A stretch of DNA of 64,000 nucleotides from Diadema setosum (Eukaryota > Echinodermata > Echinoidea > Diadematoida > Diadematidae): contig NC_092706.1 of the NCBI RefSeq assembly GCF_964275005.1, positions 30,184,781-30,248,780 of the forward strand, written 5' to 3'. The position numbers and the translations under genes are program-made. This document shows positions 14,941 to 40,222 of this stretch, in pieces. Under the pieces are notes generated by a model, which was given only the letters and a program-made list of their open reading frames with translations, had not been told where the DNA came from and made no database searches. Numbering within the stretch: the first letter of the stretch is position 1; each line of letters starts with the position of its first letter.

Positions 14941-14989
14941 CCACCTAAATTTAATCATTTTACATAAATATTATATGTATTCACCTTTT

Positions 14990-15690: not shown

Positions 15691-15699
15691 ATTATTAAT

Positions 15700-17190: not shown

Positions 17191-17749
17191 AGGGAATGTA
17201 AACCCAAAGAGCAATGTGGATTGAGTAAAAGCATTAACATTAGTAGAACACATCAGTGAAAGTTTGAGGAAAATCGGACGATCGATGCAAAAGTTATGAA
17301 TTTTTAAAGTTTTGGTGTTGGAACCGCTGGATGAGGAGACTACTAGAGGTTATGACGTATGAGTGGACAACGATATAAAGAAAATATAAAAGGAATTCCA
17401 CAAAAATTTACTTTTCTAGCAAAATGAAAGAGTACTTGACAAACAGCTTTCAGAAAGCAGGGGGAATAATTGCTACCCCTAACATATCTCAGTATCAAGT
17501 TGATGGAATGTGTAATTTTTATGAAATATGAATTTTTTATTAAATTCCCTTTATATTTTCTTTATCTTGTAGTCCCCTCATACGTGATAACCTCTAGTAG
17601 TCTCCTCACCCAGCAGTTCCAACACCAAAACTTGAATAATTCGTAACTTTTGCATTGATTGCCCGATTTTCCTCAAACTTTCACTGATGTGTTTTACTAA
17701 TGTCACTGCTTTCACTCAACCCACATTGCTCTTTGGGTTTACGTTCCCT
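17191..17749. mobile_element. Fold-back element with ~210-bp inverted arms and TTAA duplication
   Basis: The left terminus AGGGAATGTAAACCCAAAG and right terminus CTTTGGGTTTACGTTCCCT are inverted. TTAA is present on both sides (17187-17190 and 17750-17753). The inverted similarity continues inward for about 210 bp per arm, for example GAGGAGACTACTAGAGGTTA against TAACCTCTAGTAGTCTCCTC. The whole element could form a long hairpin. A short AT-rich spacer lies between the arms. The TTAA duplication points to piggyBac-type mobilisation; no protein is encoded. Confidence 0.85.
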
Positions 17750-18482
17750 TTAAGTTGTTGGGGTGAGTTTGAAAGTAAACCATTTCTGTCTGAATTACGA
17801 TTATACCTCATAGAATGAATGGTGGATACTCGCAGGAACTACTATTTTTTAGTCTTCGTCGCTGTTCTGGATGACGTACGCTACAGAACATAATCGAGGG
17901 AAACAATACCACTTGTTAAAGTTATTTGTCCGCCACGTTTGCCGCAACACAGTAACAGAATGATCATAATGATTTTATCTAAATGGATGGAGCTATTCGA
18001 AGGAAACTTACGAGCCTGTCTACAATCTAGGAATAAGACAAGAGTTCTTTCTTTTTTAATTCCTCTCTTGATTAAACGTTTTTGTTTTTCTAGCACTGGT
18101 TACAGAATTTATTAGTCTTTTGATCTCCTCTGATACTTATTTTTATCACTTCGCGAAGATTTTAAATGACCTGTGTTATGACGCAGACACGACAGTCTCA
18201 GGGTTCTGTTAGGTGTAATCTTCTGACTAATTTTACGTTACCCCCTGCACACGAATGGACTCTTCCTGCCTTTGTACGTCAATGTGCAATAAACATATAA
18301 CCCACAGAAGAGTACAACTTTCGAGGGAAAGCTTTGGACGATAATTTCACTTCGGATCCATGGCGAAATAGTGGCTAATAACAACAAAAAAGGAATCTTT
18401 CAAGATTACAACATTCCTATAAGGACGGGGGATCCGTCTTATGTGTTGAAATCGTGTTTTGTGGGACAAACTGGATTTGACA

Positions 18483-18573
18483 ATGCGGACTTTATCCATT
18501 TTTATGGTGGTGCTCATCCACCTAGTTGGACTAGTAATGGCCCAGGAAGAGCCAATTTTACCACAGAACCCGT
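18483..18573 (+). CDS. Exon 1: signal peptide of the FCGBP-like protein
   Basis: It encodes [20 protein letters not shown] followed by [11 protein letters not shown] charged start, a 16-residue hydrophobic core and a small residue at the cleavage point make a textbook secretory leader. The donor is GTAAGT at 18574 and the exon ends in phase 1 with T. Joined to CG at 31320 it makes a serine codon. Frame, leader and donor all agree, which supports linkage across the large intron, though another acceptor could also be used. Confidence 0.75.
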
Positions 18574-20838
18574 GTAAGTATCATTGCTGTCGTCTTGTCG
18601 TACTTCGGTATGTTTTAGAAAAAGCTCCTCTGTTCTCAGTAGTGTTCGAGAGTTACCCGATAACAAGTGCCAAAATTATGTGAGTAGTAATCACGAAGTG
18701 TCGAGCCACGCTGACGATTAAAAAAACAATCAGTAGTCGGGTTTTATTATTGTTTCGTCCAGATATTGTGGATAACATATTATGAAGAGCTATAGAGTGC
18801 GTCATGGTGATTACATATCACTGAGCATTATTTTATGTCATAATTCTATAACACATTACATTCATTTGGAACTTTTAACTGAAGTTAACAAAAATAGGTA
18901 TGAACTGAATTGAATTCATTTTTTCATCATGAGGTGAAACACCGTGATCAGCAAAGCTTGTTTCCATATGGGTTCACAAAAAACAAAAAACAAAAAACAA
19001 AAACAAAAACAATAAGATAAACAGAAAATATGTAGAGTTAAGATATGAACAAATGTCATATGTGCAATAATACACAGTACATTGCACAATACATAAAGAA
19101 ATATAAATGGACTGACATTAGAAAATAATATAAGAATGCACATTCCAATGGAAGAAAAAATTAAAACTTTGGTGTATTTTTTTTTTTTTTTTTTTAGATG
19201 CATGGATTTCTGGCCATTTGCCTATATACTCTTAGACAAGCCACAATGATTTTATTATTATTATTTTTTAATCATTAGTGCCAATGATCCCCTTGGAGCA
19301 ATAACACATACATTCTGGTCTGTAACGTATTATGACGTGGCAAAAATCTTTCGAAACATTACTTGTGGAGTACCTTTGCCACTCTCGAAAGTGAAAACGA
19401 AGTAGCTAGAAGAGTTTACTAGATTGGTAGTTTGTATGAGTTCGCTAAAAGTAGCCTCCAGTGGCACTCCACGTAACCGAAATACCTTTTTGGCTGGTTT
19501 TAGTTTTTATTTTGATCGACCTACATGTATCTGATAATACGACTCCGTCGTCTCTCTCTCTCTTCTGAGTTAATGAAATCCGATTACTCATTTCCTATTC
19601 AGTTTTGAAGGAACGATTTTCTCAGTGGGAGCAACCGAACAATGGGAAAACTTGTTGAGGGTATAGAGATTGTGCAATTTGCGCCATGACCATCATTTAG
19701 GATTCTTTTGAAACAAACTATGAAAAACACGCATAAATGCGATGGTCTCGGAAAAGGCCTTGCTTTTGTGCGGCTATTGTAAAACAATCTTAACATGAGC
19801 ATAATGCACAAGGCATTTGTTTAGAGTGCGTCTTAGAGCATATCGGCTGCAGCTGCCGTAAATATCGTTTGCGGTACAACGAATCTTGCCAGTATTTTTT
19901 TTTAACTTGGCAAAATTACAAAGTATTGTCTTTCCTTTCCCTTATGACGCTCATCAAAACTGCATTGAATTCAGTTTCGTAGGTCATTTTAAACACCTAG
20001 CTTAGCTTCTTTTTTTTGAGCGCTTGTACTATTGTACATTCGATGTACCACGACAAGGCGTGGTCACGGAAATTTGACGTCTTACCGTGTCTTCAGCAAA
20101 ACTCCACCGAAACAAACCAAAGCACAAAATTTAACGTCAGATACACCTTTTGCAATTCGGTGTTTGCCTGAATGGTGTCTAAATGCAGCATTTAATTCAA
20201 TAAAAATATTTTAAAAAGGAGTTTCTCCCTGGTGTTAGCCTCATCGCGCCCTATAAAGAGGTTGTTATGGAAGAGCGCAAGTTAAAATGACGGTCAATGT
20301 CACCAGCCCTAGTTCCATTGTGTATGAAAGAGCTGTGAAGGTATAGTAAGACGCGTAGTCGATTGCTTGCCGTGTCTCTGAGTGTGTGGTTGTGTGTGCG
20401 TGCATGGAGGCGATAACCACACTCCCGTGACTCAATGCGATGTTTTAATTGATAAATCCGCTGTCGACATTAACAAGTTTCATGCCTCAGATGACTAACT
20501 ATTCAGTATACATAGGCAGGAAAGGGGGGCTTTCAGTGTTTGAATCCACTCAGGAAATACATTGTCCACAAGATCTTTAGCTTTGTGTAACTGAACGTAA
20601 AGTCAGTTGACACTGCTGCTTGTTTTACTGTATGTAACAGCGCGTGATCATAATAGTTCTCAAAGAAAGTAAACGTTAATCGTTAACTTACACGCTTTCA
20701 TGAAGGTCATTGGAAAGAAGCTTCGTATAAATAAGAGTGTATATTTCATGTACTGCTTCACATTCTGAATCAGTCTATCTATCTTATCTATCTATCTATC
20801 TATCTATCTATCAATATCAATCTATCTATCTAACATAA

Positions 20839-20878
<40 letters not shown>

Positions 20879-23800
20879 ATTTATCTATCTCTAACTCTAT
20901 CTTTATATATCTACCTATACCTACATTATATCTGTTTGTCTGTCTGTTAATGTAATACGTACGTGCTAGTAAATTGCCAGTGACGACATGAGAGAAAGCA
21001 TTTTTTTTTTTTTTTTTTTGTGGGGGATCAATTTCCACTTGTTAAGTCATTGTGTGAGTGGTTTTTTTTTTTTCTTCTGAATTCGAGATTGAGACACTGG
21101 TTTGGTAACTGAAGCAAAGAGATTTTCCAAATGTATTTTATTCATCATGTTCCACGAAAACCAGCTATATCGATTTATTTGTTCGTTCGTTCGTTCGTTC
21201 GTTCGTATTTATTTTGCTTCTCAAAATCAAATCAAATCAAAACGTACTTACAACATGGATGTGACAAATTTAAACAAAAACATAACCAAATGACAAAGGA
21301 GCAATATATCATAAAAAAGTGCAGTTTAGGCCTATATGTCGATGTAGATTTTGAATGCTCGCCAGCCAGACAGAACTGAAGAAGTGACTCGGACGAGTCA
21401 CGAAACTGTTCTCTCCGTGATTTTCATAAGTAGAAAGTCCAGTCGTACAGATTTAATTTGCACGCTTTTAGTTTAGGTCTATACTACATACATAACAGAA
21501 ATCTTTGTAAACCACTAATAGTTGCAAATAATACAGAAAAGGCAGTACATTATTGATTCAACATGGAAGCAGGAGACGGTCAGCATTATTGCAGCACAAC
21601 GTATAAACGACGACTATTTGATATTGATATTCAAGGACACTGGTTAGATAAAAGGACAAAAAGAAAAAGAAGTAGGACCGAAAAGAAAAGAAGGTCAGTT
21701 ATATGTTATCTGTATAGGGCATTTAGCAGCTATGTATTTCGGTCCATGAGCATACAGAAGTGAGGATGTAACTTTTCACAAGAGAGCAATCGAGGTGTAA
21801 ATATTTAACAGTAAATCTCCTTAGTCTGGGCTAACCGTTTGACCTATAATTTGACAAAAGCGGACTGGAGTGGATGGCTTGCATGTTTCAATAAGAGATG
21901 TCCCAATCATTTGAGTTTGTAACCACATTATCATTTAATCTCAATCAAACTTTGGTTTTGATTGTAACTACAAATCCATTGAATATGATAGAGCATAATT
22001 ATTGAACTAAGTTTTGTTTACTTCTCGAGCACAGTTTAACCATTATGATTAATCTTATTGATAGTTTTCGCAGATAACATTGTGCAATATTTTCAAACTT
22101 CGTTGAAGTTTTCGTTGAAGTTGGCAGAACCTCAAACGAAAATGTCAGTGCCCCGCTTCTACTATGACTACGCGTTATGTCATAATAATGACCATTTTTA
22201 GAGAACCTATATCTGATTGGATTCCGTGCCAAGATATGCAAAGTCATTTTTTCCGTACATTATAGTGATGATTATATCATTGTGATTGGAGATTCATGAA
22301 TAAGATATAAAAAGTAATAACATTCAAAATCAAACTCGCTGATGATGATTAAGATACTACTCTAAAGTATAAGCCTGTCACATGCGGGTTTGAAATGTGT
22401 GTAATTGCGAGGGAGGGGGCACTAGCACACCCAAGACGCAACAGGTGAGAGAATTTATAACTTGTTTGAATATATCATATCACCTGTGAAGTGATATAGG
22501 CCTATTAGTATACCGACTTACAGACGTGAACAAGTGAAGATGCGAGTTGAATGATGGTTCATGATTACATGAGAAAAGCAAACTTCAAATAAACAATGAT
22601 CACTGAGAAATGGGGAGACTGTAACAGAGAGTGATGTGTAAGAACGAAGGAGAGAGGATGAGACGTAAAAGAAGCAAATATTAATAATGAGGAGACAAAT
22701 ATTGGATGTAAAGCCAAAGATGATTTTCCGTCTATTTCCCCTGGTCCTCATCCGCTCCTCTTCAGATGTATTTTTTTTTTTTTAAATCACAGATTACTCG
22801 TGCTCTAAATATAATTATAGTCCTTGCGCTACAGTGGCATGACTTTTTTTCCACATAATTATGTCATATACTAAATATAATCACAGTAGATGTTTCTTCC
22901 ATGCTCTCTCTCCCTCCCCCTATCTTTCTTATTTCTCTCTCCCCATCCTCTCTGTTCAGTCGACTTTCATAAATCCAGCTCTTTTCCTTTGCCATTTTAT
23001 CACGGTAATAATCATTATGCTATAGTAGCCATCGGAGAAAGTTGGGGGGGGGGGTGGGCGGTGGTAGCACCATGCATTCGTCTTACGTGAGGTGGCATAC
23101 ATTCATAGTGCAATGTCACCTATGAAATAGGTGATGCTGGGATGGCACGTTCCTGTGAAAAATTACTTATACCAGCGATGAGAAGACAACTGCTCACGCT
23201 AGTCGCAGTTTGATTCTGCATCCGGGGCAAGCTGACTTGAACACCAACAAACTGAAAAAAAAAAAGTGGGTTCTATGTAAGCTGTTGGTGTTTTTATTTT
23301 TGGTTTTGGTTTTTTACTGTATGTGTTATTGATTTTTCCCCTCAGTCTCATTCCTCATCCCTCAATCCTGCTGGTAACCCAATCTTTAGGTTAAAAAACA
23401 AAACAAAACAAAAACCCTTTACCACAATGAATCACGAGATATATAACAATGGTAATCATCGTTAAGAGGTACATTCTAAACTCTAATACGTCATTTCAAG
23501 CAATAGCGTCGAATTGTTAACTTGTTTCCAACAAGACTCTTAAATTCTCATAGATTGCGCATGCACATGGCGTACGAGGTTCACGTTGACTATGGGGGTG
23601 GGACTCAAACAGTCTTAGCAGCTAAGTATACTGTATACGCTATAATTTTCGCGTACATAAATTTTCGCGAATTGCCGCTGTCATTGCACACATTTTCGCG
23701 AGTGGTTAAATTCGCGATTGGGGGACCAGAGAAAATATGAAGTGGCAAAGAAAGTGTGAATTTTCAACTTACTAGCTAATAAGAATGATACTAGTTATAC

Positions 23801-26800
23801 TCTCTAAAAAAATCGAGTGAAAATATTCACTCTTGAAAGAGTGAATACAAAAAAGAGTGAATTTAGAGTGAAATTGGAGTGAATTTTGAGTGAAAATGTT
23901 CATTTTCACTCATTTTGGAGTGACGTCAAGGATCACTCGAAGATTTTGGAGTGATCCCTGACGTTGCGATAAGGATTGGCTCTACAGTATTCGTAAGTAG
24001 ACGTGGACTAGCCCGACCACCCCAGACGCTGTTAATACGCTGTGCTGTGCGAATGCTACTTACAGCGACTGGGCTGTGTATATTAGTTAGTATAGACGTG
24101 GACGTGCTATATGTACGTAAACAAGCTTAGCCAGTATGGTCTGTTCGGTAAGCGGTGACATGGTATACTAGAACTGAAATGTTCGTATCATCAAGGCAAG
24201 GGATTCATTTTGGAAGGTAATATTTTCGCGTGTTGTTAATTTCGCGAATAGCTCCCGACTCGCGAAATTCGCGAAAATAAAACCCACGCGAAATATATAG
24301 CGTATACAGAGTAAATGATTGAATTTCTTTTACACGCAGGAAACTACGACGTCGTGTTGTATTATGACGTCACAAAATTACTTTGAGTGTCGCGTGTCCA
24401 TCTCTTTGTTTTTCTTTGTTTTTCTTTTTTTTTCTTTTTTTACTCGGGGGAGGGGACTGCGGTAGTCACGATGGGTTAATATTGAATCTTTTTAAATCTG
24501 AAAATGCGATATTTGGTCTGAACAAAAAATATTGTAGGAATGCTGTATATAGGCCTAAACATATTTTGTTTTTTCCATTCCTATTAGGTTTGGTGGTTAT
24601 ATCTGTTGTTGTTTTTGTTGTTGCCTTTTAAGATAAGAAAAATACCCGGAATTCAGTCACTGCCTAAGAAAAGTTAAATAATTCTACATAAATCATTTCG
24701 ACGATGCTTTCTCTTTATTTTCAATTGGAGATTACCTTTTGAGAGGTGAATGTCGAGATGATTAAGTAGATAGCAACCTGAGCATTTAGGTAGGGGGTCT
24801 CGGATCGAAATCTGCAATTACTTTTCTGAGAATATCTCTCAAGCAACTTTCACTGATGAGTAATAGATGTTTCTTCTGAATAAAAGAAACTTGGGAATTA
24901 TGGAAGGATATTTTCTCGGCCTGCTGACTGAGATGACGAGTACACTTTTTGCTTGCCATTGCCTGGGCTCTGATGTGCAACGTAATACGACTGTCAAAAG
25001 AATTCCCTCTCGATTGAAGATGATAGACGTCAGTAAAAAAGGATCCTGTGGGGCTCTGCATGGACCGTATAATGAGGGCTAATTTAAGTCTCCGTTCAAA
25101 AACCTTCATTAGAGTCTATTTCTAAAACACGTAGTGAGTTGATTTCCGGGATATGCAGAAACATGTGATCGTATACTGGAAGAGGAGTCTACAGTATACA
25201 CTGCTAAGTGAAATACGTGTATACTTCTAACACAGTGCAAATGACAGCTTTCGTCTCTCTGCTGATAATCGTTCATGCTAACGTAATTACGTCTCCGATT
25301 TCCAGCAGGGCAAAGCTCTAATATCTCTGTAAAGATGTGGGAGTAGCCGATTTATTATAGGAACTAATTTTGCTGTGAGGCAAAGTGAAGTGGACTGGCT
25401 GGGAGAGTAAGTAGAACACATCTAACCTGACCCTGTAACTTCCTAAGGGATCGTTCAGTTTTGGTTGAGACCTAACTTCAGGTTTCTAACATTTTTGTGC
25501 GAGATAATGAGAAACCTCCTGTGCGTAATATGAAAGATCATGTAATTCCAAGAGGAACTCGACGTTTATAATTACTTTGATGAAAATTGATTTTGAAATG
25601 GCTGACATACCCAAAAGAGAGTAAACTAATTGCAATTGCTTTATTTCACTTTGTTTATGGATGTCTCAGCCATTCCAAAACCGATTTTCATCAAATAAAC
25701 GTTGAATTTGTCTTAGAATGGTATGCTTTGTACTATTTCATAAGTGGTTTCTTGGTATCTCGCAAAAAGTTCAATCCTTGCCTCCACCAATACTGTACCA
25801 TCCCTTTAAACATCATAAAAAACGAAAACCGCTTGATGTCATCATCATCATATGAAAATAGAAATACATGTAGTCTTCCTTGCTCTTTCCTAACTGCTTG
25901 ACGGACTCTCAAAAAAACGAGCAGTGATTGGACAGAACTCAAGGAGGTTTCAGCGGGTAGGCATGGAAAAGTGGTGTGACGTTTTGAAGTCAGACAAAGA
26001 CTATCATAGTTCAGGTTCGGGATCGACGCACGGGGAAAAATAAAGGCTATGAGAAGAGGGAACGGCATACTATGATGCGAGGTGTGAAAACAAACAGAAA
26101 CATGGATGAAAGAGCCTTTGTTTTTTCGTTCCATTTTTTTTTTAAGATGGTTTCTCAATTTTTCAAAACGACAAACACTAACTTGACATTACCTTTCGTA
26201 CGCGATAATAAAAACGCAATAAACTATGTCACTGTAAAAGTTTGCATAAAGACATTCCAGGAACGGCCAAAACAAGAAGTGCCATGTACATGAAAGACAA
26301 ATCTACCTAGAGAATATAGTAAAGAATAAAGATTTTTAAAAATGCCCCTTCAACTCTCCCTCAATGCTCAATGAAAAACAAACTATGAAAAACAAACAAA
26401 CAAACATTAGGCGAATGGCTGGACGCATGAGTGGTCTATAGTAATTTCTTCAACATAATATAGCTGCTATGTTGATAGATAATAAGGTTGAAATCCCACT
26501 CAAAACTTATCTCAAAGAAAGTAAAGTCAGACAAACAAAACTGAAAGTTGCTGAAATAGGACAAAAATATGATGTATTGAAAATAATATAATCGAACGCG
26601 TTGTGCTGAAACAGTAGTACTTCAAAAATAAAAGGTCTATAATGTCATCACAACTTCACATGTCTCCTTAAAGCCTTACGGACTCTCAAGCTAATATTCG
26701 CTAAAATTGTGATGTTGGGAATGCACAAATCATAAGAGTTTAATTGACATACATTTTGCAATATGACTTTTAAAAAAAAATTGGATATGTTTGTGATGAT

Positions 26801-29800
26801 CTGCCAGACACTGTTGTCTAAAAATCCTGTGAGGGTTTTGAGACGAGAAAAGTGCCAACCCGCTTAATTTGCATGATTATTGTATGTCCTACATCACTGC
26901 TGCCTAAAAAAAAAGAAAAACATTCACATTTCTTCACTTTCTCAACTAATGTCTGATTGTGACCAAACTTTTACAATCCTCTTTGTTTAACTTGATTTCA
27001 TTGTTACTGTACGTCTGGATACACAGTTGGTGTCCTTTCACAATTATTCAAGAAACCTACCTGTTTCCTGAACCCTTGTATTACATGCTGGGGGCTCTTT
27101 CGATGGTTTCCATGCCAACACGTTGAATGAGTCACACACCCATTGTGACGGTAACGATCATTACTGCCTCATCATTGCCCTGTCAGAGAAGTTGGCAAGC
27201 ACGTGCCCAAGCTATATCGAGCCTTGAGATCGTAGAGATGAGCAGAGCGAATTGCTAGACTGCCCCCCTGCCCCTCCCTTCCTCGTACCTCTTCTGTACC
27301 CCTTGTTGCACCCCTTGCGAACCTCTTAAAGCTATATCTCTCTTCTTTCCTCTGCTTTGAAACAGGAGTGTGAAGATGCCTACGATGCAATCTAAAAGGC
27401 TAAATGTAAGTTTTGCTGATTGTGGTTCATCGCTTTACAAAATAATGATTATGAATGTACTCCTTTTTAATAGGAGGGAATCACATTCAATCTCGCACGA
27501 TAAAAAAAGTATAGTCATCGAATAGTGAAAATATATATATATTTTTATGTCACAGTATTTAAGCTCTTTAACTACACTAAGTTTCATTGATGTCAGCACA
27601 CCAGAATCATATCATCTTTTTCATCATGTCAGAGAAAGAGCGAGAGAAAGAAAAGGAGAGAAAGATAGAGGGGGGGGGGCAGAGCTGGAGTAAGTACAAA
27701 ATCTTAATGCGTGACTCGCATAAACCACACCAGTCAGCTGCAAGTATAATTGCCCTCATAAACATGCTGTAGATACTCAGTTGGTGGAGACAGATTCAAC
27801 TCTTATGGACGTATGTCTGTTTGGAGCCTCATTTTTGCATTATCAATTCACAATATCATGCCGAACAACAATGTCATTAGCAAGCAACTGCTCATCTGTG
27901 ACTATCAAAACAAATATCAGTTTTGATTTACGAACGATCCACAGCAATATGCTCATGCATAACACATTGGTTGTCTGTGTCAGAATGGAACAGTATCAGG
28001 TGAATATAAAAACTCTAAATGTACGAAAGACCATCTCAGTATATTATCGGAAGATATGGCACATGGTTTAATGAGGCATTACATGATGCATCATTTAGAC
28101 AGCAAATTGGCCAACAACTGCCATAGTTCCCATGGTACCAAGGTTTGTAGATTGTTACAAATTATGGTTGGTCAAAACAAACTGTGAGTCATCTATGACT
28201 AGAATGAATCAATAACCATGATAACGGGAGAGAAGGCGAACAGCAAAGTTTCAATCTTGTCTAAATCAGTGACATTCTTGTAATTCATTTAAAATAGAAT
28301 AGAAAACATAACAATGCGTCACCATCCTGAGATAGTAGATCCAGAACTTACATTCCAGTTTACCAATCTCAACCGGTGACACCCGGCACAAAATTGACAT
28401 ATCTGTAGACTTTGTGTTTGTAGTTGTTATGGATTGTGAATAAATTACTCGTTAGGACGAAAAGGTAGATTCTCATCATTTCCAAATCCGCTCATATTTC
28501 GGTCAGAACGCTTCACAGTTGGATGAGCGAATCGTTATTTGTCCATGCATTTAGCTGGCTTAATTTTGAAGTCTGACGGAATTAACCGCCTGTTGTCAGA
28601 TAACGTAAGTCAAGTAGGACCTACCAGTGATACAAAAAACGATATGCTTGATTCAATACTTTGAATTCGGTACTTTTGTGCAAAATTGATATTAAAACGG
28701 CGAGTAAATTATCTGATTTTAAACTCTGGAACACCTTATTAATTCGAGCTGTATGTCGGAATGTAATCATCATTTTGCTTTATAATTTCAACATCATAGT
28801 CTAATCTTTCAATTTATATCTCTCGCGAGTAAGTATTCATTAAGAACCTTTTTCTTTTTTTTTGGAAGTGGTATCCCAATAACTGACAACGACACAAATT
28901 GAAATAGATGAGCCACTAAAACACAAATTAAAGCTTACGATCAGAAAGCTGTTTAGATGCAGATATAACCGCTCCGTTAATTCCAGTTTAGGAAGTGGAA
29001 CTTCAGTGCGGTGAGACTTAATGTTGGTTGTCGATAAGTCTATAGTAGAAAGAAAGCAGCACGTGTTTTAGTCATTTTTATATTGGTTTTTAGCGCCGAT
29101 TTGTTCCACCGCAGACTTTAGTCATGTCTCGCTAGCAGCTGAAGTTCCACTGTGAAACATTCCCCGTACTCCCCACCCCTGGGCCAACATACACGAGGAA
29201 TACATGAGAAATCCCTGTATGTTTCGTTTACTGAATTCTAGGTGGACCTCCCCCTGTCTCCTACCATTTCTGACTCACTTGGCAATCAAGGTCAGCTTTA
29301 GAAATAGATGAGCCACTAAAACACGACGTGTGTTGTTGTTATTGTTGTCGCTAATAAGCTTTCGGGGAATGTTTCTCATCTACCATTATTATTTCTTTCG
29401 TAAAACTCGTTTGCACGAAACTGGCCATTCTAGTTAAAACAATCTTTGCACTCTCTCCAACTTAAAGAAAAATCCACGAGAGGCGTCCGCATTGCAGAAT
29501 GCACGCAGCAAATAAACGAAGATTATAGTTTGATTTTTGAGTTACCATGATAAAGAACGAACTGTGAAGAGTGTTGGCACCATGGTTAATGTATATCCTA
29601 ATGTCCAGCTGTATACTCTTTGGTTTTGATTTGAAAATTTAAAGTTTTAGTTTCCCAGTTTGTCAATGGACACTTTTGGAAGTAGAAATCACTTTTGAAA
29701 CGTTACGTTATTCTGACTGTTTAGTGGCAAGTCCTTCTAAAAATTGATTACAATAATGCACTTAATATAGGTTTTCCCATCCATTTTCGCACTTTTGTCA

Positions 29801-32800
29801 TTCAATTTCAAAGATTTATTATTCAACTTTAATTTCGTCAATTGTCATTGTAATTCGTTTTTCGTCAAACATTTTCGAAGACATATCATTCAAAATCGTC
29901 AATTGTCATTCAAATTCATCCCTCCCGCTGACGGATCGCAGAATGTGAAGATCAAATTCGTTTTTGTTCACACAATTTCATGATTTTTTTCATTCAAATT
30001 AGCCAGATGTTGTTGATTCTTTATTTTGAGGGTGAACCAACTTTAAGCCGACATATTTTTACTTTCTCTCGTAAATTGTATTGGAAAGCAGCAAACATAA
30101 TTATGTTATCCATTCTTTAACATTAAACAGGCTACAATCAACACTTAAAATTTTGTCTTTAATCATGTTTGCCTAGAAATCGTTTGTCAGAGTTTTCGTA
30201 TGCGAGACGGTACGTCTGTTTGTATCAGTGTGTACTCGAATTGCTTGTGTGTGTGTCTGTATGTGTGGTTCTGCGTGTGCGTGTTTGGGGGGGGGGGGGA
30301 CTTGTGTGTATGTTAACTCCTGAATGTAAAATGTGAACGGTAACAGAAAAAAAAAAATGCATGAATGACTGGGAAATCACACCGGATAGAGATATGAGAC
30401 GAATATGAATGAAAATTTAACGAAAATGATTGACAAAAGACGAAATCGATCCTGCTGTTTTGAGTGCTGCGATTGAGACTGACGAATTTGAACTGTAAAT
30501 GACGAAAATGTATGCCAAATGACTAAATTGAACGGACTTTATTTGAAAATGAACGACAAAAGACGAATTTGAAAGTAAGATTGGCCTATTCCCGACATCC
30601 CGCGACGAAATTGAAGTAAAAATTTGTGAAAGTGAATGAAAAAAGTTTGAAAATGAATGGGAAAACCTATAACTTCCAAGAGCGTGTTTGGCCTGAGGTA
30701 ATATGCCAGTTCGTATTTAGCTCGTATGCACACTGATACAAATGGCCTTCTTCTTGTATAAGTTGCTTTATTGTCACAAAGTATAAAAGCTTTCAAGAAA
30801 ATGACAAAATGCAGCATATGATTTGCTTATCACAAGATTTTGTTGTGCATGAAGACCGATACGACAACTAATTTTCTCATTATGGATATCTTAGTGCTGT
30901 ATAGGCATAATATGGGAGACCTAGTCTAGCTGGACATGGGTAAGATGTTACATGACTATTTCTAAAAATCGAAACAAGAGACGCCATTCAAAACCTATTT
31001 ATCACATCCAGAAATACACCAAACTAATTCTCTACGTGCGAAATTTTATCATGCTTCAACACCCAACATTGGGTACCAGATATATTTGAAACGAAAAAAA
31101 AAAAATTGTCACAGCATCGTCTTGACTGAGAAAAAATTGATTTCTCAACCCAATCTATTGGATGTCTTGGTTGTGCATCAAAACATCTTATGACATCCAT
31201 CTAGCGGTCAGCATTTAGATCCAATAACTTCATATTATAGATTATACATACAATTCATCACAAAATGTTACATGCATGAGCTGAATATGTTTTTCCCTCT
31301 TTTGTTTTCTTGTCTTCAGCGTTTAGCAATAAACAGCCGGACACGCGAGGCAGGGAGTTCATATTCGCCATGCCGAGTAACTTCAACGTACCCTCCAAGA
31401 TCCAGCTGATGATCGGTTCGTCTAATCCTGGTTTGGCCAGGGTTATGGTCAATGTCCCGGGATACAAGTTTAGGAGAGAAATTACACTGAACGTACGCCA
31501 GATGAAGACGCTGAGTCTTCCAGGGACAGTGGCCGCCAACGGAGGAGGTCCGCAAAACGGAACCATCGTGATCACTTCCAACCTGGAAGTGACGGTTCAC
31601 GCGGCTAGCGTCATGCCCAAGACAAATGACGGCTTCGTGGCCATTCCAACTGATGCCATCGGGAAGGAATATATCATTGCCTCGTATGACATCGTCACAG
31701 GTCAGTGGTCATCGTTCACCATTACTGGCACCAAGCAAGGAACTCGCATCAGGGTAGTACCCTCCCAGAGGGTGCTCCACAATCGACAGTGGTACAACGC
31801 CGGACAGATCATCAACGTCAATCTGAATGCGGCCCAAACCATGCAGATCAGGTGTCCTAAAGACTTGACCGGAACCTACATCATGGCCGACAAGCCTGTG
31901 TCCGTGGTATCAGGAGCCACCTGTACCAGGGTCCCAAGCAGCATGCAGAGGTGTGATCATTTGGTGGAGATGTTGCCACCAGTCTCTGCCCTTGGCACAC
32001 GTTTCTCACTTCTTCCGCTTCTCAACAGAACTGGGTACGTCTTCAGGATGATCGCGGCACGACCAAATACCAAGGTTCATCTAGCTGGAACCATCTACAC
32101 CCTTGGTCAGAGAGGTTCCTTCAGGGAGTTCAACCAGGACGCCCAGCTTCCAGTTTCCCTCACATCCAACAAACCACTTCTCGTGACGCAATACGGCAAG
32201 GGAATGGACCCTAACTTCTGGGGTGATCCGTTTATGACCATCATCCCACCTGTAGAGCAGTACATGCAAGGAATGACCACCTTTGGAACGTTGGCCCAGT
32301 CAGGGCAGGACATGTTCTTCAGCTTCATGTCGATATCAACGACTTCTGCCGACTTATTCAGCATAAGTCTGAACAACATTTTGGTTATGGGCACTGATCT
32401 AGAGCTACCCAAGGCCGCTGAGACACTCAGGTACGATAATAGAGTTTCTTTATTAAATATGATAACGAAAATATTTACAAGGTGGTGAATTGATATATTT
32501 TTAGACAATGGAATTCCATCTTATGTCATTGAATCCCGCAAGGATGTACACGATACAGCATTGACAAATTAAAAGGTTCCATTGTCTTTCCGTGGAAAAC
32601 AAGTATAGACGAAATACAAAGAAAGTGGCCTCAAGGTCATGAGTTGTAGAAACGGTTCAATCTATGTAGCGGCATAAACCACAGGTGCAGTTTGATAATG
32701 TCTTGTCGCAGGTTTGTTTGTTTGTTTGTTTGTTTGTTTGTTTGTTTGTTTTTTGTGGGGGTTCTTAAATGGATTCCCGAACGAAATCTGTTGGTCAAAT

Positions 32801-35800
32801 ACATGGAGATGTGACGCCAATGCAGCAGAACGATGGTAAATGATAAACAAACAACTTTGTGGCAGTACCCTTTCTTTAGGTAACTGAAAACAGTCATTGC
32901 ACGTCATCCAGTACTCAGCTCTGTTGTTGTCAGTGAAGGACTAGGTTAACTACTTGAGAATGTTGCATCACATAAATACTTTTCCGTAAACCAGGTGACA
33001 ACAGAATGTTGCTTTACCGATGTCTGTGACGTTGATTTTTTGGCTTTTACAAGGACAAGGTAACATTGAATGTATCAAAAGGAACTCTAACATATCAATA
33101 TCCCTCTTGTGAATAATGGAGTGAGAATTGCCTCTGACCTGTTACTTGAAGTTTAAGAATTCTCGTCCTGTTTATATCTGGTCCTGAAATGTTTGTCCGA
33201 AATCATTTCTGTCATATGTGACGCTGTAGGAAGTATTAACCTTTGGAACTTCCTGTGGTTTAGGTTTACAGCGGACCGGACTATGAAGATAGAAAACATC
33301 CCTCACACTCTACACAACCCTTCCTTCATGTCTCGATTTACTGCCATTGTACATGGCGTGTCTCAGGGATCAGGCTATGGATACCCAATTGGATACAACC
33401 TCCGCACACTTCTCTGCTCCAGAACAGATCCGATGACAGGTGCGTTACATTGACAACAAGTTCCAGATTTTTATCAAAAACAAGAGCAGTGACGGATCCA
33501 GGGGGCGCACCGGGCGCGCCCCCTTTATTTTTTGTTTAAAAAAAAATGGGGAGGGGTGAGTGCGCCCCCATAATTTTGTAAAGGCGCCCCCTCTTTACAG
33601 AATTTCTGGATCCGCCCCTGAAGAGTAACCTCGTTCGTTTTGTGGTCAGAGCCACAGCAAAATACTATCATCTATATATGATATCTTAAAGAGAGTTGAA
33701 TATGTCGGTCTCTGTTTCACCTTCCAAAGCTTCCAAGACGTCAATATTTTAGGAAAAAATGTGAATAGGCAGAACATATACAGGAACGATGCTATGCGGA
33801 CATTATGATTCTTATATAGACTGGCTAGAAAGCAATGGGCAAGACTGCGTATTCCATGTGCTTTGTGCAGATTGCAAAAGTATAAAGAATAATTTCTATG
33901 ATCATGTCAGTATAGCATGCAACATGGTTCTTGAATTTCACCAAACTGTTTCATCAGTTTCTAGGTAAATGTCGATATCGAAACCATGATACATGTACAA
34001 CAATCTCTTGAATGTAGAGAAACAAAGTGTACTTAATTGCAATCCATGGAACATAGGTGTGACGTAGGATGTGTGTTGCTAGGGTTAGGGAAATAAAGAC
34101 AATATGAGTAATGAAAGTGAAAAAGATCAAGGCTAAGGAAGTGGTTGCGGGTGGTGAGGATTAGTGACAAAACAGGCGCATTTCTAAAAATTGATGCTAC
34201 TTATAGGCCGGTTACACCAAGGAGATCGGCGAATACCTGATTGGATACACCAGCGCCATGGGCGTCGACAGAATGTCAAACATGGACTCCAGTTCGTTTT
34301 GATTCTGAATAGTCATGAATAACCATTATTTAGGGTTAATAATAACCATAATGATTCATAACCCTCCTCCGGTTGAGATCAAAACAATGCGATGGTCTCT
34401 CCTGTCTGATTCTTTTTTTTTAATTATCAAACTTACACTGTGGATGGTTGTAATCTTATCTGATAATCTTGCTTTATCAAAACTGAAATTTATTGTCATA
34501 GAGGTTTATTAAAAACTATAGATGTGACATCTTAGTGTCCTCACAAATTAACGTAGCAAAGAAAGAAATTTTGGACATAATATCAAGGAAGCATTGTCTT
34601 AAAGTCATTTCAATTTAAGGATTCTTTCGAAGAGACGGTAACTTTCTAGCCGACATTCTCTATTATCTTGCACGACATTTCGACAAGGCAAAACAGAATT
34701 CCGAATTTAATAGTTCATACACGTAGAGCACCATTATTTGTGTGGAATACTGAAAGATATGTCATGAGCAAAGAGCCGTTTCATTTTCAGTGGTTTGTTT
34801 GTTTGTTTGTTTGTTTGTTTGTTTTTCTGTCTGTCTGTTTTTCTGACCTTAAAATCTCAACTCTCACACACCGTTGTAATACAACACCCTTCATTAGCGA
34901 GTATCAAGTATGCTAAGAGTATTATGTGCTGAATAGAGTTTGTACGACTACTGCTGTGCAGAAGTCACCGCTTAGGAAAAATTACAGTAGAAGACAAAGA
35001 CTGATTTTTGAGTAACTTATACATCAAGGAGGCTAACACAATCGCAAGATGTCTTAACATGAAACCCATTTTCGCCTCCCATGTAAGGAGAGGGTTAGCA
35101 GCTGATGTTCTTAGTCATAAACAGGGGGAAATCATCAGTTTCTGTTACCTTAGAAAGTCACCCATAGTCACCTCGGGTTTCTCGACGAGAAGACTATACA
35201 TGTCTACGTAATCCACTCAATATCTTAAAGTGATATAATTCATGAAATAATTCCAACATCACATAACTTAGGTAAATCAGGTGGCATTGGCTATGGCAGG
35301 ATGATGTTTGATTGTTTAAAGGGATGAACTATTCACTTTCAATTATGATGGTAAAGATGTGATTTTTTCACGATGTAAAAGTGTCCTTGAAACTCAGGAA
35401 TAATATGTTAAGTTACATGTTACGTGATAATGTTAGTTTACGGAACCTGAATTGTTTATTACAGTTTGCAAGAACAAAAGAGCCACAAGACGATGTTCTG
35501 CAATACTGTTATGAAGAGGTGGGTTGGGACTTTCATGAGTTCATATTTATCGTACATGTTAAGCATGAATCAAACCTGTTTCATCCCCCACCCCCATGTA
35601 CGATTCGTTCATCCAGGCTTGATCGAGGAGTTCCAGTGCCCCGCACCTATACCTCCTATTCAGCCTGGTCTTATACCCAGCAATGTGCCCGGTATGCCTG
35701 GTAACATCCCCATCCAGCCTGGCGTAGGCCTCAACCCAGGCTTCGGTGGTTTCAATGGGATGTTTCCTGGTATGGCCACGGGTGGTCAACCCGGTGCCTT

Positions 35801-37236
35801 CCTACCTGGGAACTTCTTCACCGGTGGCAAGCCAATAAGTCCAAACATCCCGATCCTCCCTGGGCAACCCATCGACCCTAACGCCGGAGCAGCTCAGACA
35901 CAACCCGGCCAGTTCCCGGCCAACAACCCACTCAATCCCATCAGTCCCAACAACCCGTTTGCGAACCCTGGACAGCCGTTCGTACCCATGGTTCCTTTCA
36001 ACCCCATCGGACCGGGCATGATCCCTCCTCCGGAGAGTGAGTCTACCGAATTGTTGTTGTGGGTTTTTTTTTTTTTCTCATCTCTCATGGTAACCTAAAG
36101 ACCAAGGTATAAGTAGTGTTTTATACAAAGACCACATAATTATTTTTTTCTCATCTCTCATGGTAACCTAAATACCAAGGTATAAGTAGTGTTTTATACA
36201 AAGACCACATAATTATTAGGCAAAATATTCATGAAATATTCATTTTCATGAGCCCAAAGTATTAAAATATAAAAAGTAATGCCGAAGAGGACAGAAATGC
36301 ACTGGGTCTGTCTATCATCTCATCTGGGTCACTTACGTCACCTACATACCGATTGTCCAATACAATGTTATAACTATATGGACAGTAAGATTGATAAGTT
36401 TCAGAACTTTTAACTTTCCTGTTTGTCTGTCTGTTTTCTTCTGCCTGTTTTCATGACGCATTTCATTACAAGTATTATCTTTTAAAATCCAAGGACCACT
36501 CAAGTGACATTGGCAACAAGAAAAACAAAATCTGTACCCATAATCGTCAATGTTTCTAGACAACGGCATATAGTTATGTCCAAGGATAAACAGGATTACC
36601 CTCAATACATCAATATAGGTATGTATAGAACGGGGATTTAACCACTTCTGCATGTATTGATGTATTCCTCCAGATTGCTTCACCCTGGGACTGCTCATCC
36701 TCGCTGCCGTTGCCCCAGTAACCGTCGTCTTCATTGTCATGCTGGTCATCCTACTTGCCATAGTATACAGGTAATGTGGTTACCATGTACTCCCACTTAT
36801 TTAATATTGGTCACAAATGGTGTACATTGCAAGTTTCGTCTCAAATTCGTTGTTCTTTCTCTTTTAAAGTTTTGACATCGGAAGATTTAGTTCACCCCAC
36901 TGATAACCAAGCGCAAATAACGAACGAACGAAGGAAATAACCAAAATGTGTTAGAGGTAGTTAATTGGCATCTTAGTATACAGAAAACAACTGTAATCGT
37001 AGTTTGTTTCAAATTGCTTTTTTACCCTTTTCCCTTGGTAATGATAAAGACCGTGTAAGAGGCAGTTAATTCATTTTGATATGATGAATAGATTATATTA
37101 TTATTATATTGTGAAGCTGTAATGATCGTGATATAATGATGATAATAATAATTGTAATTTAATAATTCTTATAACAATAACAATGATAAGGATGATTATG
37201 ATAAGCAACAAATCTTCGTGATGATGATGGCACTAT

Positions 37237-37332
<96 letters not shown>

Positions 37333-37634
37333 GAGAGAGAGATATATATATATATATATATTTATAAAGAATGTGTGTATGTTAATCTATTACACTTGTT
37401 AGATTAGATCTATTTCAAGGTTTAATGAAGATCTACGTCAGCGTACCGTACGACAGTTTCTCGGTGCAGTGTCACACAATCAAGTATAAGAATGCTGTGC
37501 AATACCAATACACATGTGCCGAAGTTAGTCTGTTGCCAGCAGTAGGGTATTTACACTTCAAATATGCCATCTTTGACAACCGATTATATGTTTTTCTTCC
37601 CCTCTTTGTTACTAGGTTCAAGAAGAAGCACTGA
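18483..37634 (+). CDS. IgGFc-binding-protein-like type I membrane protein
   Basis: Six exons join with matching phases: 18483-18573, 31320-32430, 33264-33439, 35617-36036, 36674-36770 and 37616-37634, totalling 637 codons plus stop. The order is signal peptide (1-20), one IgGFc-binding domain (about 35-455), Pro/Gly/Asn-rich stalk (460-599), membrane helix (604-630), and a cytosolic tail of seven residues, RFKKKH after Tyr. The domain shows [11 protein letters not shown] at its start, a cysteine followed by [11 protein letters not shown] near residue 242, and [10 protein letters not shown] at its end, all typical of the N-terminal domain of FCGBP relatives. Human FCGBP is a secreted mucus protein with many VWD repeats; none are present here. 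The probable role is a cell-surface binding or adhesion protein in mucosal or immune settings (inference). The ATG at 18483 is the first in frame before the hydrophobic leader. Confidence 0.85.
18967..19199. repeat. A/T-rich low-complexity tracts
   Basis: CAAAAAACAAAAAACAAAAA phrases near 18980 and a run of about 20 T near 19178 frame a short AT-rich stretch. It looks like simple-sequence slippage rather than an RNA-derived tail, since no SINE body is recognisable. Confidence 0.5.
20778..20935. repeat. (ATCT)n microsatellite
   Basis: Long runs of TATCTATCTATC are interrupted by a few substitutions, with a TCTGTCTGT tail. It lies in intron 1 of the FCGBP-like gene. Confidence 0.95.
21181..21207. 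repeat. (TTCG)n microsatellite
   Basis: Six consecutive GTTCG-type tetranucleotides, followed by AAATCAAATCAAATC near 21228. This is a simple repeat in intron 1. Confidence 0.9.
23631..24309. mobile_element. TTTCGCG-rich miniature element, copy 3, with internal insertion
   Basis: The left end CTGTATACGCTATAATTTTCG is mirrored by CGCGAAATATATAGCGTATACAG on the right. TA precedes the left end; the right flank has decayed. CGCGAA phrases cluster in the outer 110 bp of each side. The middle holds unrelated DNA, including the GAGTGA-rich block 23813-23965, so the element has probably been split by insertion. Confidence 0.65.
23813..23965. repeat. GAGTGA-rich block with inverted phrases
   Basis: GAGTGA or its complement TCACTC occurs about a dozen times in roughly 150 bp. 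Opposed phrases include GAGTGAAAATATTCACTC and GGAGTGACGTCA / TGGAGTGATCCCTGACG. It looks like the terminal part of a separate small element with internal inverted symmetry. Both ends are unclear. Confidence 0.5.
25446..25805. mobile_element. TTAA-type miniature element, family P copy 2
   Basis: The left terminus AGGGATCGTTCAGTTTTGGT is matched on the right by ACTGTACCATCCCT, followed by TTAA (25806-25809). The left TTAA has mutated to CTAA. Internal phrases such as TTTTCATCAAATAAACGTTG are shared with the copy at 58053-58434. It lies in intron 1 of the FCGBP-like gene. Confidence 0.7.
28901..29324. repeat. Direct repeat pair, 24 bp, 400 bp apart
   Basis: A 24-base string starting GAAATAGATGAGCCACTAAA occurs at 28901-28924 and identically at 29301-29324. 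Between them lie opposed phrases GTGGAACTTCAG (near 28997) and CTGAAGTTCCAC (near 29139). The nature of the interval is unknown; no ORF or recognisable terminal repeat accompanies it. Confidence 0.7.
29770..30667. mobile_element. 900-bp TA-flanked element with GGTTTTCCCAT ends
   Basis: GGTTTTCCCATCCATTTTC at the left is mirrored by GAAAATGAATGGGAAAACC at the right. TA flanks both ends (29768-29769 and 30668-30669). The left third carries repeats of CAATTGTCATT and TTCGTC; the right third carries their complements (GACGAAA, AATGAC), giving extended imperfect inverted symmetry. The middle includes a GT-rich stretch and a G-run near 30287. It encodes no protein. Confidence 0.75.
31320..32430 (+). 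CDS. Exon 2: IgGFc-binding domain, main part
   Basis: One 1.1-kb exon carries residues 31-400. Its codon use (GCC, ACC, AAG, ATC rich) stands out from the AT-rich surroundings. Family-like phrases include [18 protein letters not shown], a [14 protein letters not shown] segment, the [20 protein letters not shown] stretch and [11 protein letters not shown]. The acceptor is TTGTCTTCAG and the donor AG|GTACGA, leaving phase 2. Assignment to the FCGBP N-terminal domain family is by recognised motif order, not by a search. Confidence 0.92.
32431..33263 (+). other. Intron 2 of the FCGBP-like gene
   Basis: It contains a (TTTG)n array at 32713-32752. I see no coding segment beyond the flanking exons. 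Confidence 0.7.
32713..32752. repeat. (TTTG)n microsatellite
   Basis: About nine consecutive GTTT units. It is read as CAAACAAA on the other strand, where it makes spurious KQTN-repeat frames. Confidence 0.95.
33264..33439 (+). CDS. Exon 3: end of the IgGFc-binding domain
   Basis: It encodes [19 protein letters not shown] and then [20 protein letters not shown], closing with [11 protein letters not shown]. The YGYP.G motif marks the end of this domain in family members. The acceptor TGGTTTAG gives a phase-2 join to exon 2 (an Arg codon). The donor G|GTGCGT leaves phase 1, which fits exon 4 exactly. Confidence 0.82.
33487..33620. mobile_element. hAT-like miniature element CAGTGACGGATCC
   Basis: CAGTGACGGATCCAGGGGG is mirrored by TTCTGGATCCGCCCCTG, with GCGCCCCC palindromic sequence inside and an AT-rich centre. 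The terminal pattern CAG(T/G)G-CGGATCCAG is widespread in animal miniature hAT elements (established knowledge). The flanks share a short AAGAG but no clear 8-bp duplication. It lies in intron 3. Confidence 0.75.
34208..34303 (+). pseudogene. Exon-like segment inside intron 3
   Basis: Directly after TACTTATAG, a frame encodes [19 protein letters not shown] and then [12 protein letters not shown] before TGA. Codon use (ACC, AAG, GAG, ATC, GGC, GAC) matches the neighbouring exons rather than intron DNA. The acceptor would give phase 0, while exon 3 ends in phase 1, so it cannot be spliced in this frame after exon 3. It may be a relic of a duplicated exon or an exon of an alternative form. I do not recognise a domain. 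Confidence 0.4.
35617..36036 (+). CDS. Exon 4: Pro/Gly/Asn-rich extracellular stalk
   Basis: It encodes 140 residues beginning [18 protein letters not shown], with irregular short motifs such as [18 protein letters not shown] and [10 protein letters not shown]. The composition is about one third Pro plus Gly, with a single early Cys and hydrophobic residues spaced between prolines. This fits an extended, possibly elastic spacer holding the binding domain off the membrane (inference). The acceptor is CATCCAG and the donor GTGAGT. The composition is not collagen-like: there is no Gly every third residue. Confidence 0.85.
36077..36217. repeat. Two-copy tandem duplication, 73-bp period
   Basis: CTCATCTCTCATGGTAACCT through ACCACATAATTATT occurs at 36077 and again at 36150 with one or two differences. 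It is a recent duplication in intron 4, just after exon 4. Confidence 0.9.
36674..36770 (+). CDS. Exon 5: transmembrane helix
   Basis: After NCFT it encodes [19 protein letters not shown] followed by LVILLAIVY, a continuous hydrophobic run of about 27 residues with no charge. The acceptor is TTCCTCCAG and the donor AG|GTAATG. Phase 1 in and phase 2 out match both neighbours. The adjacent cysteine could be a lipidation or disulphide site; this is not testable here. Confidence 0.85.
37236..37362. repeat. (CT)n/(TA)n compound microsatellite
   Basis: A TCTC run passes into a long TATA run with GTATA interruptions, then AGAGAG and TATA again. It lies in intron 5 and its symmetric parts could form hairpins. 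Confidence 0.95.
37616..37634 (+). CDS. Exon 6: cytosolic tail and stop
   Basis: A 19-bp terminal coding exon after TTGTTACTAG. It completes the Arg codon and encodes FKKKH and TGA. A Lys-rich tail right after the helix agrees with the positive-inside rule for a type I protein. The lysine at the third position from the C-terminus (KKKH) resembles a dilysine-type retrieval signal, a possibility only. Confidence 0.8.
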
Positions 37635-37990
37635 AAAGACGAGAAACTTCGGGCTGTGGACAGTTTTTCAATACAGTAATTGCTAGTCACATTAATCGCA
37701 GTTACCACAGCATACGAACGGTAACAATCAGTCTTGAGTATTTTAAATAATGTTATGGTAACTGTAATCATTGCATCTGGCAATGACTGTCGGTATTTCA
37801 AAGAAAAGGATGACACGATTCAGGTTCAGTCCCTTTGTCTTGAGACAGCTAAGCACCTGTCAGAAAACAAGATTGAGAAATAATGAGACAGACCAGCTGT
37901 ACTACGCCATTTCATTTTGCCCAATGAGTAAGATAACAGCTTCGCAAAGATACCACGTGATCACCAATGGCTTAAGACAAGAAAATACAC

Positions 37991-37996
37991 AATAAA
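37991..37996 (+). promoter_or_regulatory. Polyadenylation signal AATAAA of the FCGBP-like gene
   Basis: This canonical AATAAA lies 357 bp after the stop codon at 37634, in the sense strand, followed by a GT-rich stretch within 30 bp (GTGTGTCATCGTG). It would give a compact 3' UTR of about 370 bp. Confidence 0.6.
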
Positions 37997-38019
37997 AACA
38001 AGAGGTGTGTCATCGTGTT

Positions 38020-40222
38020 TATTCTGATGTGAACATTGTGTGCATAAATTTGCACATTTCATTAATTGGCGTAAATATTGCTAGAATTCCGTGGCTCTAT
38101 CGAAAACGCGATATGTAACGCAAACAAATATAGCAATAACACTGAAAACGGTCGTTTTAGAAGCTACTTTACTTCTGCCTGTACTCAAATTAGAAAGATT
38201 TAGATTGTATAGCTGATATGGTTTTAAAAAGGTATGATAAATTATGTTGTTAGGTATGACAATGAATATCGGAGAAGTCGACAAGAAAGTGAGGTTGAGA
38301 TGTAAATCTTTTGTCATGCTTTGTGAAACAGTTAAATGATGTTCTTTTTTCCTGGATAGATCTTTTATAGAATGTGACAGTTGAATGCCTGTGTATTTGC
38401 TCAACCTGCGATGCTTGCCGGTTGAGTAAAGTTTTATTCTTTGTTCAAGCAAGAAACTTCAAAAAGCTGCTGGCATTGTGATCCAGGAACAAGCTAAATT
38501 TCGAGTGTAAATATTCTTCTGGAACTTGTACACATTTATTCAAACTGTACACATTTATCAACCCTGCTTTCGCTCTTACCTATTCAAGAGATGCTTATTT
38601 TCCTTACTTAACACATTTTGTGTCTGGATCTTCAAAATGATTACTTGAATAATGCAAAAATTTTATATGATTATTGTTTTGTAAATGTATGTCGATTGTG
38701 TGCAATATATTAAATGAACTTTGGAGCTTAAAAGAAAGAAGTGGAGTTATAATGACTTCCTTCATTTTTAGTGCGTTCTCACTTGGGGAGCCATTACATT
38801 GTGATTTGTACATATCACTGACGATTGACAGAACGAACCGACTTGGCAGTGAAATGGCAAAAACTGTATTAATCTATACTCGTATACAAAGCACATCAGA
38901 TCTAACAACACGCGTTTACACGTGAGTTTATGGATAAATATAATATATATAGTTTCTTCTCCCCCTCTCTCCCTTCCCCTCTTTCTTTCTCTCTCTCTCT
39001 CTCTCTGTTAGGTTCAAAATTGTGTAAACAAAGCATGATACACATATAACTTGAATGAGTCTTCACTTTTTATTTTTCCTTTTCTCTCTCTTCTCTCGAG
39101 ATTTACACAACCATGCATGACATACACATTCACAAACAAAGAAACATATAAATGTATTTATATGAATACACCCACTCACACACTGTACATTAAGTTATTG
39201 TGATGCATGTCAAAATATATCGAGAAAAAAAAATCATAGAAAATGATTTTTGGCAATGAAGAGAACACACGTAACACTGACTTCAAGATTGTTTATAACT
39301 TTTATATCACTACAAGTATTACAGCTTTTTCCCCTTCCACCATGCCGTGCCTTTCCGAGCTTGGCCGGCTGCGCTGCGGTTAATCCCTCAGCCTGCGCAC
39401 GAGAGAGCGAGGATATCGCGATAAGACGTCATGACAATGAGTCGCACGTCTGGGGGAGGGCTGACAACATTACTTCTTGGTAAAGATACAGTCACTTATA
39501 GGGACCCCAAATTTTCCATCGAAAACCTTTTGAATAGATCATCAAGGTATTTACCACGATTGAGTAAAGAGCTTATAATGGGTGCTACAATGATAAACCC
39601 TTTCGTTTCAATATATTTCATAACTTTAATATGAAAAACAAAGTTGAAGGGAAACGCTTAATACTTTAGCATCATAAAAGTATTGATATTGAAATTTGAC
39701 AGATAACTTTGGTGCCTTGATAAGATTTGCGGATATGCTTCACAAATCACAGCCAATTACCATGAGTCCATGTGTATAGCCCAATCCGTCACATCCATTG
39801 GAATTTCCTCAAGACGGGAATTTCATTTGGGATACTAACAAACTCCCAAGATCTCATAGCAATTTGATCAAGCTCCGTGGATTGGGAAATTGTTTTTCTG
39901 TTGTCATTGGCAATGTGACGGCATGAGGTATAAAGGTATAAAATTACGATCATAACAAATTTCCTGTTAGATTTCCGCGAAAATGCCGTTATAAACTTAG
40001 GTCATACAGAAAGTTTTCTGATGGAATAGCGCAATCTGTACACAGAATAAACTCACTCAAAACAATTAGTATCACTGAGTATAGAATCAAGAAAAGTATT
40101 TCTTGTGCATAAGATGAACGAGTGATACTTACATAGTGTTAAACAATTATTGAATATGAATTACACTAAATGGAATCCCTATTATACCCCGGGCTGAATA
40201 ATGCATAACACAACAAGCTTAA
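38020..40222. other. Intergenic, no convincing gene
   Basis: AT-rich, with a CT microsatellite near 38960-39010. Around 39340-39470 the composition turns CpG-rich and carries a short frame with a hydrophobic N-terminus (39256-39480, see findings). No splice-linked partner exon is apparent. Confidence 0.4.

Follow-up and report, generated by a model that had tools for sequence, protein, structure and literature searches.

The stretch of DNA analysed here, 64,000 nucleotides (nt) from the sea urchin Diadema setosum (C24:30184781-30248780; hereafter the window), contains on its plus strand a gene for a protein with a single IgGFc-binding domain and a predicted membrane anchor. An earlier reading made from the letters alone, referred to below as the sequence-only reading, had proposed a phase-consistent model of six exons, and this model held: all exons are present between positions 18483 and 37634, the five introns are all of the GT-AG type, the phases after the exons run 1, 2, 1, 1, 2, 0, and the frame remains open over 637 amino acids up to a TGA ending at 37634. 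The gene consists of the following elements, for which identities refer to its nearest paralogue (L009 and L029) in the genome searched (912.7 Mb):

18483..18573, plus strand: exon 1, with the start codon and the leader; donor GTAAGT, phase 1; hydrophobic and the best leader candidate
31320..32430, plus strand: exon 2, residues 31-400, the bulk of the IgGFc-binding region; paralogue 46% identical over exon 2 in the genome search
31628..32377, plus strand: match to Pfam PF17517 (IgGFc_binding), residues 134-383
33264..33439, plus strand: exon 3, residues 401-459, the C-terminal end of the domain region; phase 1 out; 39% identical exon in L009
35617..36036, plus strand: exon 4, the Pro/Gly/Asn-rich stalk; 420 nt
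36674..36770, plus strand: exon 5, the predicted transmembrane helix; phase 1 in, 2 out; 97 nt
37616..37634, plus strand: exon 6, the basic tail (R)FKKKH and the stop codon; 19 nt

The intron directly after exon 4 carries a 73-bp unit twice in tandem (36070-36217, 98% alike).

Family membership is established by the match to PF17517, which reaches 197.1 bits (E = 5.3e-58) against a gathering cut-off of 25.6, and a genome search for the domain gave 198.7 bits at the same place with an identical start. The sequence-only reading had claimed residues 35-455 for the domain; a profile search did find the family, but the Pfam extent is narrower than this. Residues from about 36 to about 458 can be aligned with paralogues, and the part before residue 134 also with bacterial relatives. 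No other family scored above its cut-off in the Pfam scan of the 637-residue model, with sub-threshold matches over the helix to SKG6 (E = 0.52) and Syndecan (E = 0.87). NCBIfam yielded no match for the domain, none of 28 pattern matches in viral contigs was confirmed as a relative, and Rfam at gathering scores returned nothing in the window.

Downstream of the domain, the stalk (residues 461-601) comprises 35 prolines, 22 glycines and 15 asparagines, with only three serines and three threonines among its 141 residues. The hydropathy profile reaches its maximum of 3.17 at residues 612-630 and a second maximum in the leader, and after the helix only YRFKKKH remains before the stop codon. Hydropathy and Pfam, together with a 3' layout that is kept in the paralogue, confirmed the proposed order of leader, one IgGFc-binding domain, stalk, single helix and basic tail. 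As far as sequence can tell, the leader, one helix of about 20 residues and a positively charged inner end identify a single-pass type I protein. The features of a membrane mucin are absent, as the stalk is not rich in serine and threonine and no SEA domain was found in the Pfam scan at E-values up to 1; nor does the gene resemble an adhesion G-protein-coupled receptor (GPCR), as its single helix is followed by a stop and no GPS or 7tm_2 match was found within 30 kb of the domain. Transmembrane exons with the length and phase of exon 5 did not occur in any of 200 dinucleotide shuffles of positions 33440-40000. When the 34-residue transmembrane peptide was used to search the genome at E-values up to 10, two places were returned, the sole candidates of this first look: the peptide itself (E = 4e-11) and an exon of the paralogue (E = 0.17), a match that is weak by itself but sits exactly where the gene predicts it.

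This paralogue, on the minus strand at C24:27.94-27.95 Mb, is the nearest relative of the window gene and lies on the same chromosome at a distance of 2.26 Mb; its domain is 46-47% identical and is interrupted by one extra intron. Its exons 3-6 follow one another as in the window gene and with the same phases. Exon 3 measures 158 nt versus 176 nt in the window, and exon 4, with 111 nt versus 420 nt, starts with GVQEEYECP, which aligns with GLIEEFQCP. The transmembrane exon has 97 nt, encodes CSSKGVVVLAAILPALIVFIIMVIILVFVLYR and is 44% identical to exon 5 of the window gene, while the tail exon has 19 nt and encodes RLRRKF and a stop versus RFKKKH in the window. The tail exon was chosen among three basic candidates in 6.8 kb, the other two differing in length from exon 6, and when the DNA downstream of the paralogue was shuffled 300 times, a basic tail exon of six residues appeared once. 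Because the paralogue keeps the transmembrane and tail exons with the same lengths and phases, the 3' half of the model is independently supported. The same conservation bears on the idea that the product is mainly secreted and that exons 4-6 belong to a minor isoform or are unused. The majority of the other family members, which show no transmembrane exon in the flanks read, would agree with a secreted product, but retention of both exons in a diverged paralogue argues against it, and we consider it distinctly unlikely.

The tail lends itself to yet another explanation. RFKKKH has lysines at positions -3 and -4, and KKKH could be read as KKXX, the dilysine retrieval signal; the protein would then cycle between the endoplasmic reticulum and the Golgi as an intracellular cargo receptor or in quality control. 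However, these lysines are not kept, since RLRRKF of the paralogue has arginines and the third single-pass gene, L027, ends in MDSV, and type I helices usually end in just such a short basic stop-transfer cluster. Retrieval by the tail is, in our view, unlikely.

We consider it probable, with about three chances in four, that the gene product is a type I single-pass membrane protein serving adhesion or recognition at the cell surface. Targeted to the secretory pathway by its leader, the protein would hold the IgGFc-binding domain outside the cell on a flexible, presumably disordered Pro/Gly/Asn stalk of about 130-140 residues, and the helix and the basic cytoplasmic end would form the anchor, with the cell surface as the likely destination. 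There, the domain may bind a glycan, a glycoprotein or a matrix ligand, for example in host mucus, in egg or larval matrix or on microbes. IgG is not an expected ligand since, to our knowledge, echinoderms do not possess it. Because a tail of six to seven residues is too short for a known signalling motif, autonomous signalling can be argued against, and the protein may rather act as a tether for adhesion or capture, possibly shed, than signal alone. For the surface receptor or adhesion molecule envisaged by the sequence-only reading, this means that a receptor signalling by itself is not to be expected from such a tail; a receptor or adhesion role as such is plausible and receives some support from the GPCR-linked loci described below.

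Shedding could also be the main event, if the ectodomain were displayed and then released by cleavage of the stalk or the helix, with the soluble domain as the active form. A long stalk devoid of mucin-like Ser/Thr would suit this, and both helices, that of the window gene and that of the paralogue, share LAA(V/I)xP near the outer side, residues of a type associated with intramembrane proteases. Neither length nor sequence of the stalk is conserved, however. We regard this as conceivable but not probable and retain the anchored protein as our preferred interpretation.

Within the model, the two ends differ in their support. An in-frame stop lies closely upstream of exon 1 (in the frame starting at 18450), and a scan of positions 12700-31300 for leader-like phase-1 exons returned exon 1 alone at the first settings, when the reverse strand gave no candidate; looser settings added one poorer candidate (13760-13862). 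Several results count against the anchored protein as modelled. The junction of exon 1 with exon 2, which bridges 12.7 kb, is based solely on phase and on the features of a leader; the genome search found no second copy of the leader peptide; and a scan of 13.9 kb upstream of the paralogue showed no leader exon at first, and a single low-complexity candidate once the settings were loosened. The stalk differs in length between the two genes (exons of 111 and 420 nt), searches against PDB sequences at E-values up to 1 gave no relative, and of 20 further paralogue segments scanned for transmembrane exons, each over 2.7-5.8 kb of downstream DNA, a single one, L027, was positive. Exon 1 is the weaker end of the predicted gene and is without the paralogue support that the 3' half has.

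The genome contains 27 IgGFc_binding places. It also has a strong match to bindin (E = 2.9e-54, read across one stop codon) with a second piece, as expected of a sea urchin. L027 (C4:32530500-32540400, minus strand) is the third gene with a single-pass layout, in which the domain is followed by a short stalk with Ser and Thr, a transmembrane exon and a last exon; together with the nearest paralogue it answers the suggestion of the sequence-only reading that paralogues be surveyed for the same arrangement of stalk and helix. Its transmembrane exon has 103 nt (phase 1 in, 2 out), and its tail of about 40 residues, GRCGRTKDGSRVTWSRLQNTGDIHYDVSIDGDDEVPMDSV, ends in MDSV, which resembles a class III PDZ-binding end. 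In a tree calculated from the 27 family domains and 10 of 18 bacterial domains, the window gene and the nearest paralogue were joined (99/97), whereas L027 formed a long branch that was not placed, and the tree therefore does not show that the single-pass form arose only once. A count of one change for the transmembrane group was disregarded, as it is a comparison with bacteria only.

A wider scan recovered hydrophobic open reading frames with a donor only in exon 5 of the window gene and in L027; others, devoid of a donor, occurred at 34791 of the window and, as a Cys-Val repeat, in L028, and three came from the antisense control, all likewise devoid of a donor. When four segments (L010, L013, L014 and L017) were read for 10 kb more at looser settings, sense matches appeared in L017, where a GPCR-like first helix was later backed by Pfam, and in L013, where the match was rejected as repeat-like, while L010 and L014 showed no transmembrane match in the additional 10 kb. 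The antisense control at these settings produced two matches, so that a lone match there proves little. A weak possible helix in L011 (hydropathy 1.55) was not counted. Since the transmembrane exon of the paralogue lies 6.5 kb past exon 3, short flanks cannot exclude such exons elsewhere. Same-strand tandems of IgGFc_binding domains, about 2-3 kb apart, were seen at C3:9567535-9573238, C13:26642304-26655332, C14:32267457-32271218 and C12:5394953-5398214; they are probably multi-domain genes or tandem duplicates.

For eight of the 27 IgGFc_binding places, which make up seven loci, GPS, 7tm_2 or both were found downstream on the same strand at a distance of no more than 30 kb, while within the same distance neither was found upstream on the same strand or on the opposite strand (0 of 27 each). 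These counts are based on all 69 GPS matches and on 150 of 152 7tm_2 matches, the latter from a search in which 150 of 250 candidates were scored. Under the assumption of random and independent places, 0.097 of 27 would be expected to have such neighbours; several of the loci are close duplicates, so that the eight domains amount to about three or four independent cases. The seven loci, five of which have both GPS and 7tm_2, are:

C16:10146898 (L017 4018-5223 and L051 987-6745): IgGFc_binding exon, then GPS and 7tm_2 exons on the same strand
C14:38571987: 7tm_2 alone
C13:2874156: GPS and 7tm_2
C13:2732088: 7tm_2 alone
C5:14467708: GPS and 7tm_2
C12:5394953/5397477: GPS and 7tm_2
C5:18701919: GPS and 7tm_2

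For the locus C16:10146898, eight pieces of L017 and L051 were scanned with Pfam. GPS (E = 3e-18) and 7tm_2 (E = 3.8e-14 and 4.2e-11) were recognized, the first-helix piece stayed under the cut-off with 19.5 versus 20.6 bits, and four pieces between the domain and GPS gave no Pfam match, a GAIN domain in this part being a guess by eye. When the locus was read through, two junctions were in phase (domain exon to C-terminal exon, and first helix to helices 2-3); the listed acceptors do not fit the step from helices 2-3 to helices 5-7, where an exon may be missing. No GPS or 7tm_2 was found within 30 kb of P22 (C24:8305168), although its clade holds three GPCR-linked domains. The positions of these parts suggest that the seven loci are putative IgGFc_binding adhesion GPCRs. 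As in the window gene, the domain would be the ectodomain, with GPS and 7tm_2 in place of a single helix. Because relatives of the domain adjoin adhesion-GPCR parts on the same strand, it probably serves as an ectodomain elsewhere in the genome, and with two other single-pass genes and seven GPCR-like loci tethering is not unique to the window gene.

Relatives of the domain, 28-38% identical to that of the window gene, were found at 18 bacterial loci in Bacteroidota, Verrucomicrobiota, Pseudomonadota and others. Nine of the proteins were scanned with Pfam, three of them partial because they end at the edge of their stretch. HYR was present in four, C-type lectin in two and Por_Secre_tail in two, three contained the domain alone, and none contained VWD; in six, the domain is combined with others such as HYR, C-type lectin, immunoglobulin-like domains or a tail of the type IX secretion system (T9SS). 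The bacterial proteins share the domain with the window gene and differ from it in these partners, and their layouts would fit a surface-exposed binding module that is older than animal mucus. Bacterial homologues of the N-terminal domain of FCGBP (PMC9354016, PMC9505182) and the occurrence of the domain in echinoderms (PMC11237159) are already in print. Our literature search found no paper pairing the IgGFc-binding domain with a transmembrane segment and none pairing it with an adhesion GPCR; the sole paper found that pairs the domain with a membrane describes secreted frog proteins and does not use the word 'transmembrane' (PMC11237159). The gene itself may well carry the annotation 'IgGFc-binding protein-like' in sea urchin genomes.

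Vertebrate FCGBP has its IgGFc-binding domain, about 450 residues long, at the N-terminus, and VWD-C8-TIL repeats with 13 VWD domains follow (PMC9354016). The window gene likewise has its IgGFc-binding domain near the N-terminus, but where the secreted FCGBP continues with VWD repeats, the 637-residue model continues with a stalk, one helix and a tail, contains no VWD-C8-TIL repeats after the domain and has a predicted anchor in its conserved transmembrane exon and basic tail. We found 143 VWD places in the genome, with 150 of 173 candidates scored, and all 27 IgGFc_binding places are separated from them by at least 128 kb; the VWD place nearest to the window domain is 2.68 Mb away, and the distance minima are equal whether 45 or all 143 places are used. 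No gene of the vertebrate FCGBP type was seen among these VWD places. Long VWD arrays extend over C4:13805431-14009051 and C16:29793870-30099283, with some units of equal score spaced by 3296 bp and no IgGFc_binding domain nearby; they appear to be mucin-like or repeat-VWD genes.

The sequence-only reading had regarded the gene as a minimal tethered version of a secreted mucus protein, and this is not supported, given the distances just listed and a bacterial domain devoid of VWD. Descent by reduction from an FCGBP-type mucus gene with domain and VWD repeats could be argued from PF17517, which the vertebrate protein shares (PMC9354016), and from oyster proteins named IgGFc-binding protein that are said to hold VWD domains (PMC6337334). 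The pairing may accordingly predate the vertebrates, although such names may have been given for VWD similarity and nothing else. Against such descent, the VWD places found are far from all 27 IgGFc_binding places, and VWD is missing from the nine bacterial relatives scanned, which makes the VWD-less domain the usual state in this genome; we judge a reduced FCGBP to be very improbable, and a stand-alone IgGFc_binding gene appears to be the better description of the window gene. In frogs, the PRIT glue proteins carry IgGFc-binding domains beside disordered linkers or repeats, the glue forms also having PG motifs, and have lost VWD (PMC11237159). Linkers next to the domain are common to PRITs and the window gene; PRITs have several domains and are secreted, whereas the window gene has one domain and one helix.

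Three further features were seen in the window, outside the gene:

8224-10896, minus strand: long exon of a gene with C2H2 zinc fingers (zf-C2H2, E = 4.5e-36), the C-terminal half being rich in Gln
14968-15507, plus strand: open reading frame with LHWLPVQERIRFKI and no Pfam match; by this motif, similar to the C-terminal end of a reverse transcriptase of the long interspersed nuclear element (LINE) type
59183-59557, minus strand: exon with armadillo repeats (Arm, E = 5.6e-06), apparently of an ARMC8-type gene

For the family as a whole, we lean towards the view that the IgGFc-binding domain is in this echinoderm lineage a general ligand-binding head of surface proteins, carried by three single-pass tethers and by a set of adhesion GPCRs, and that the secreted, VWD-linked mucus protein of vertebrates is one later use of an old module for surface recognition. 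A small tethered form, and relatives that seem to be built into adhesion GPCRs, which have a signalling read-out, would open the search for the ligand to assays of cell binding and of receptor activity in an animal that has no IgG, and if this view is true, our picture of the domain would shift from a building block of mucus to a module of surface recognition.

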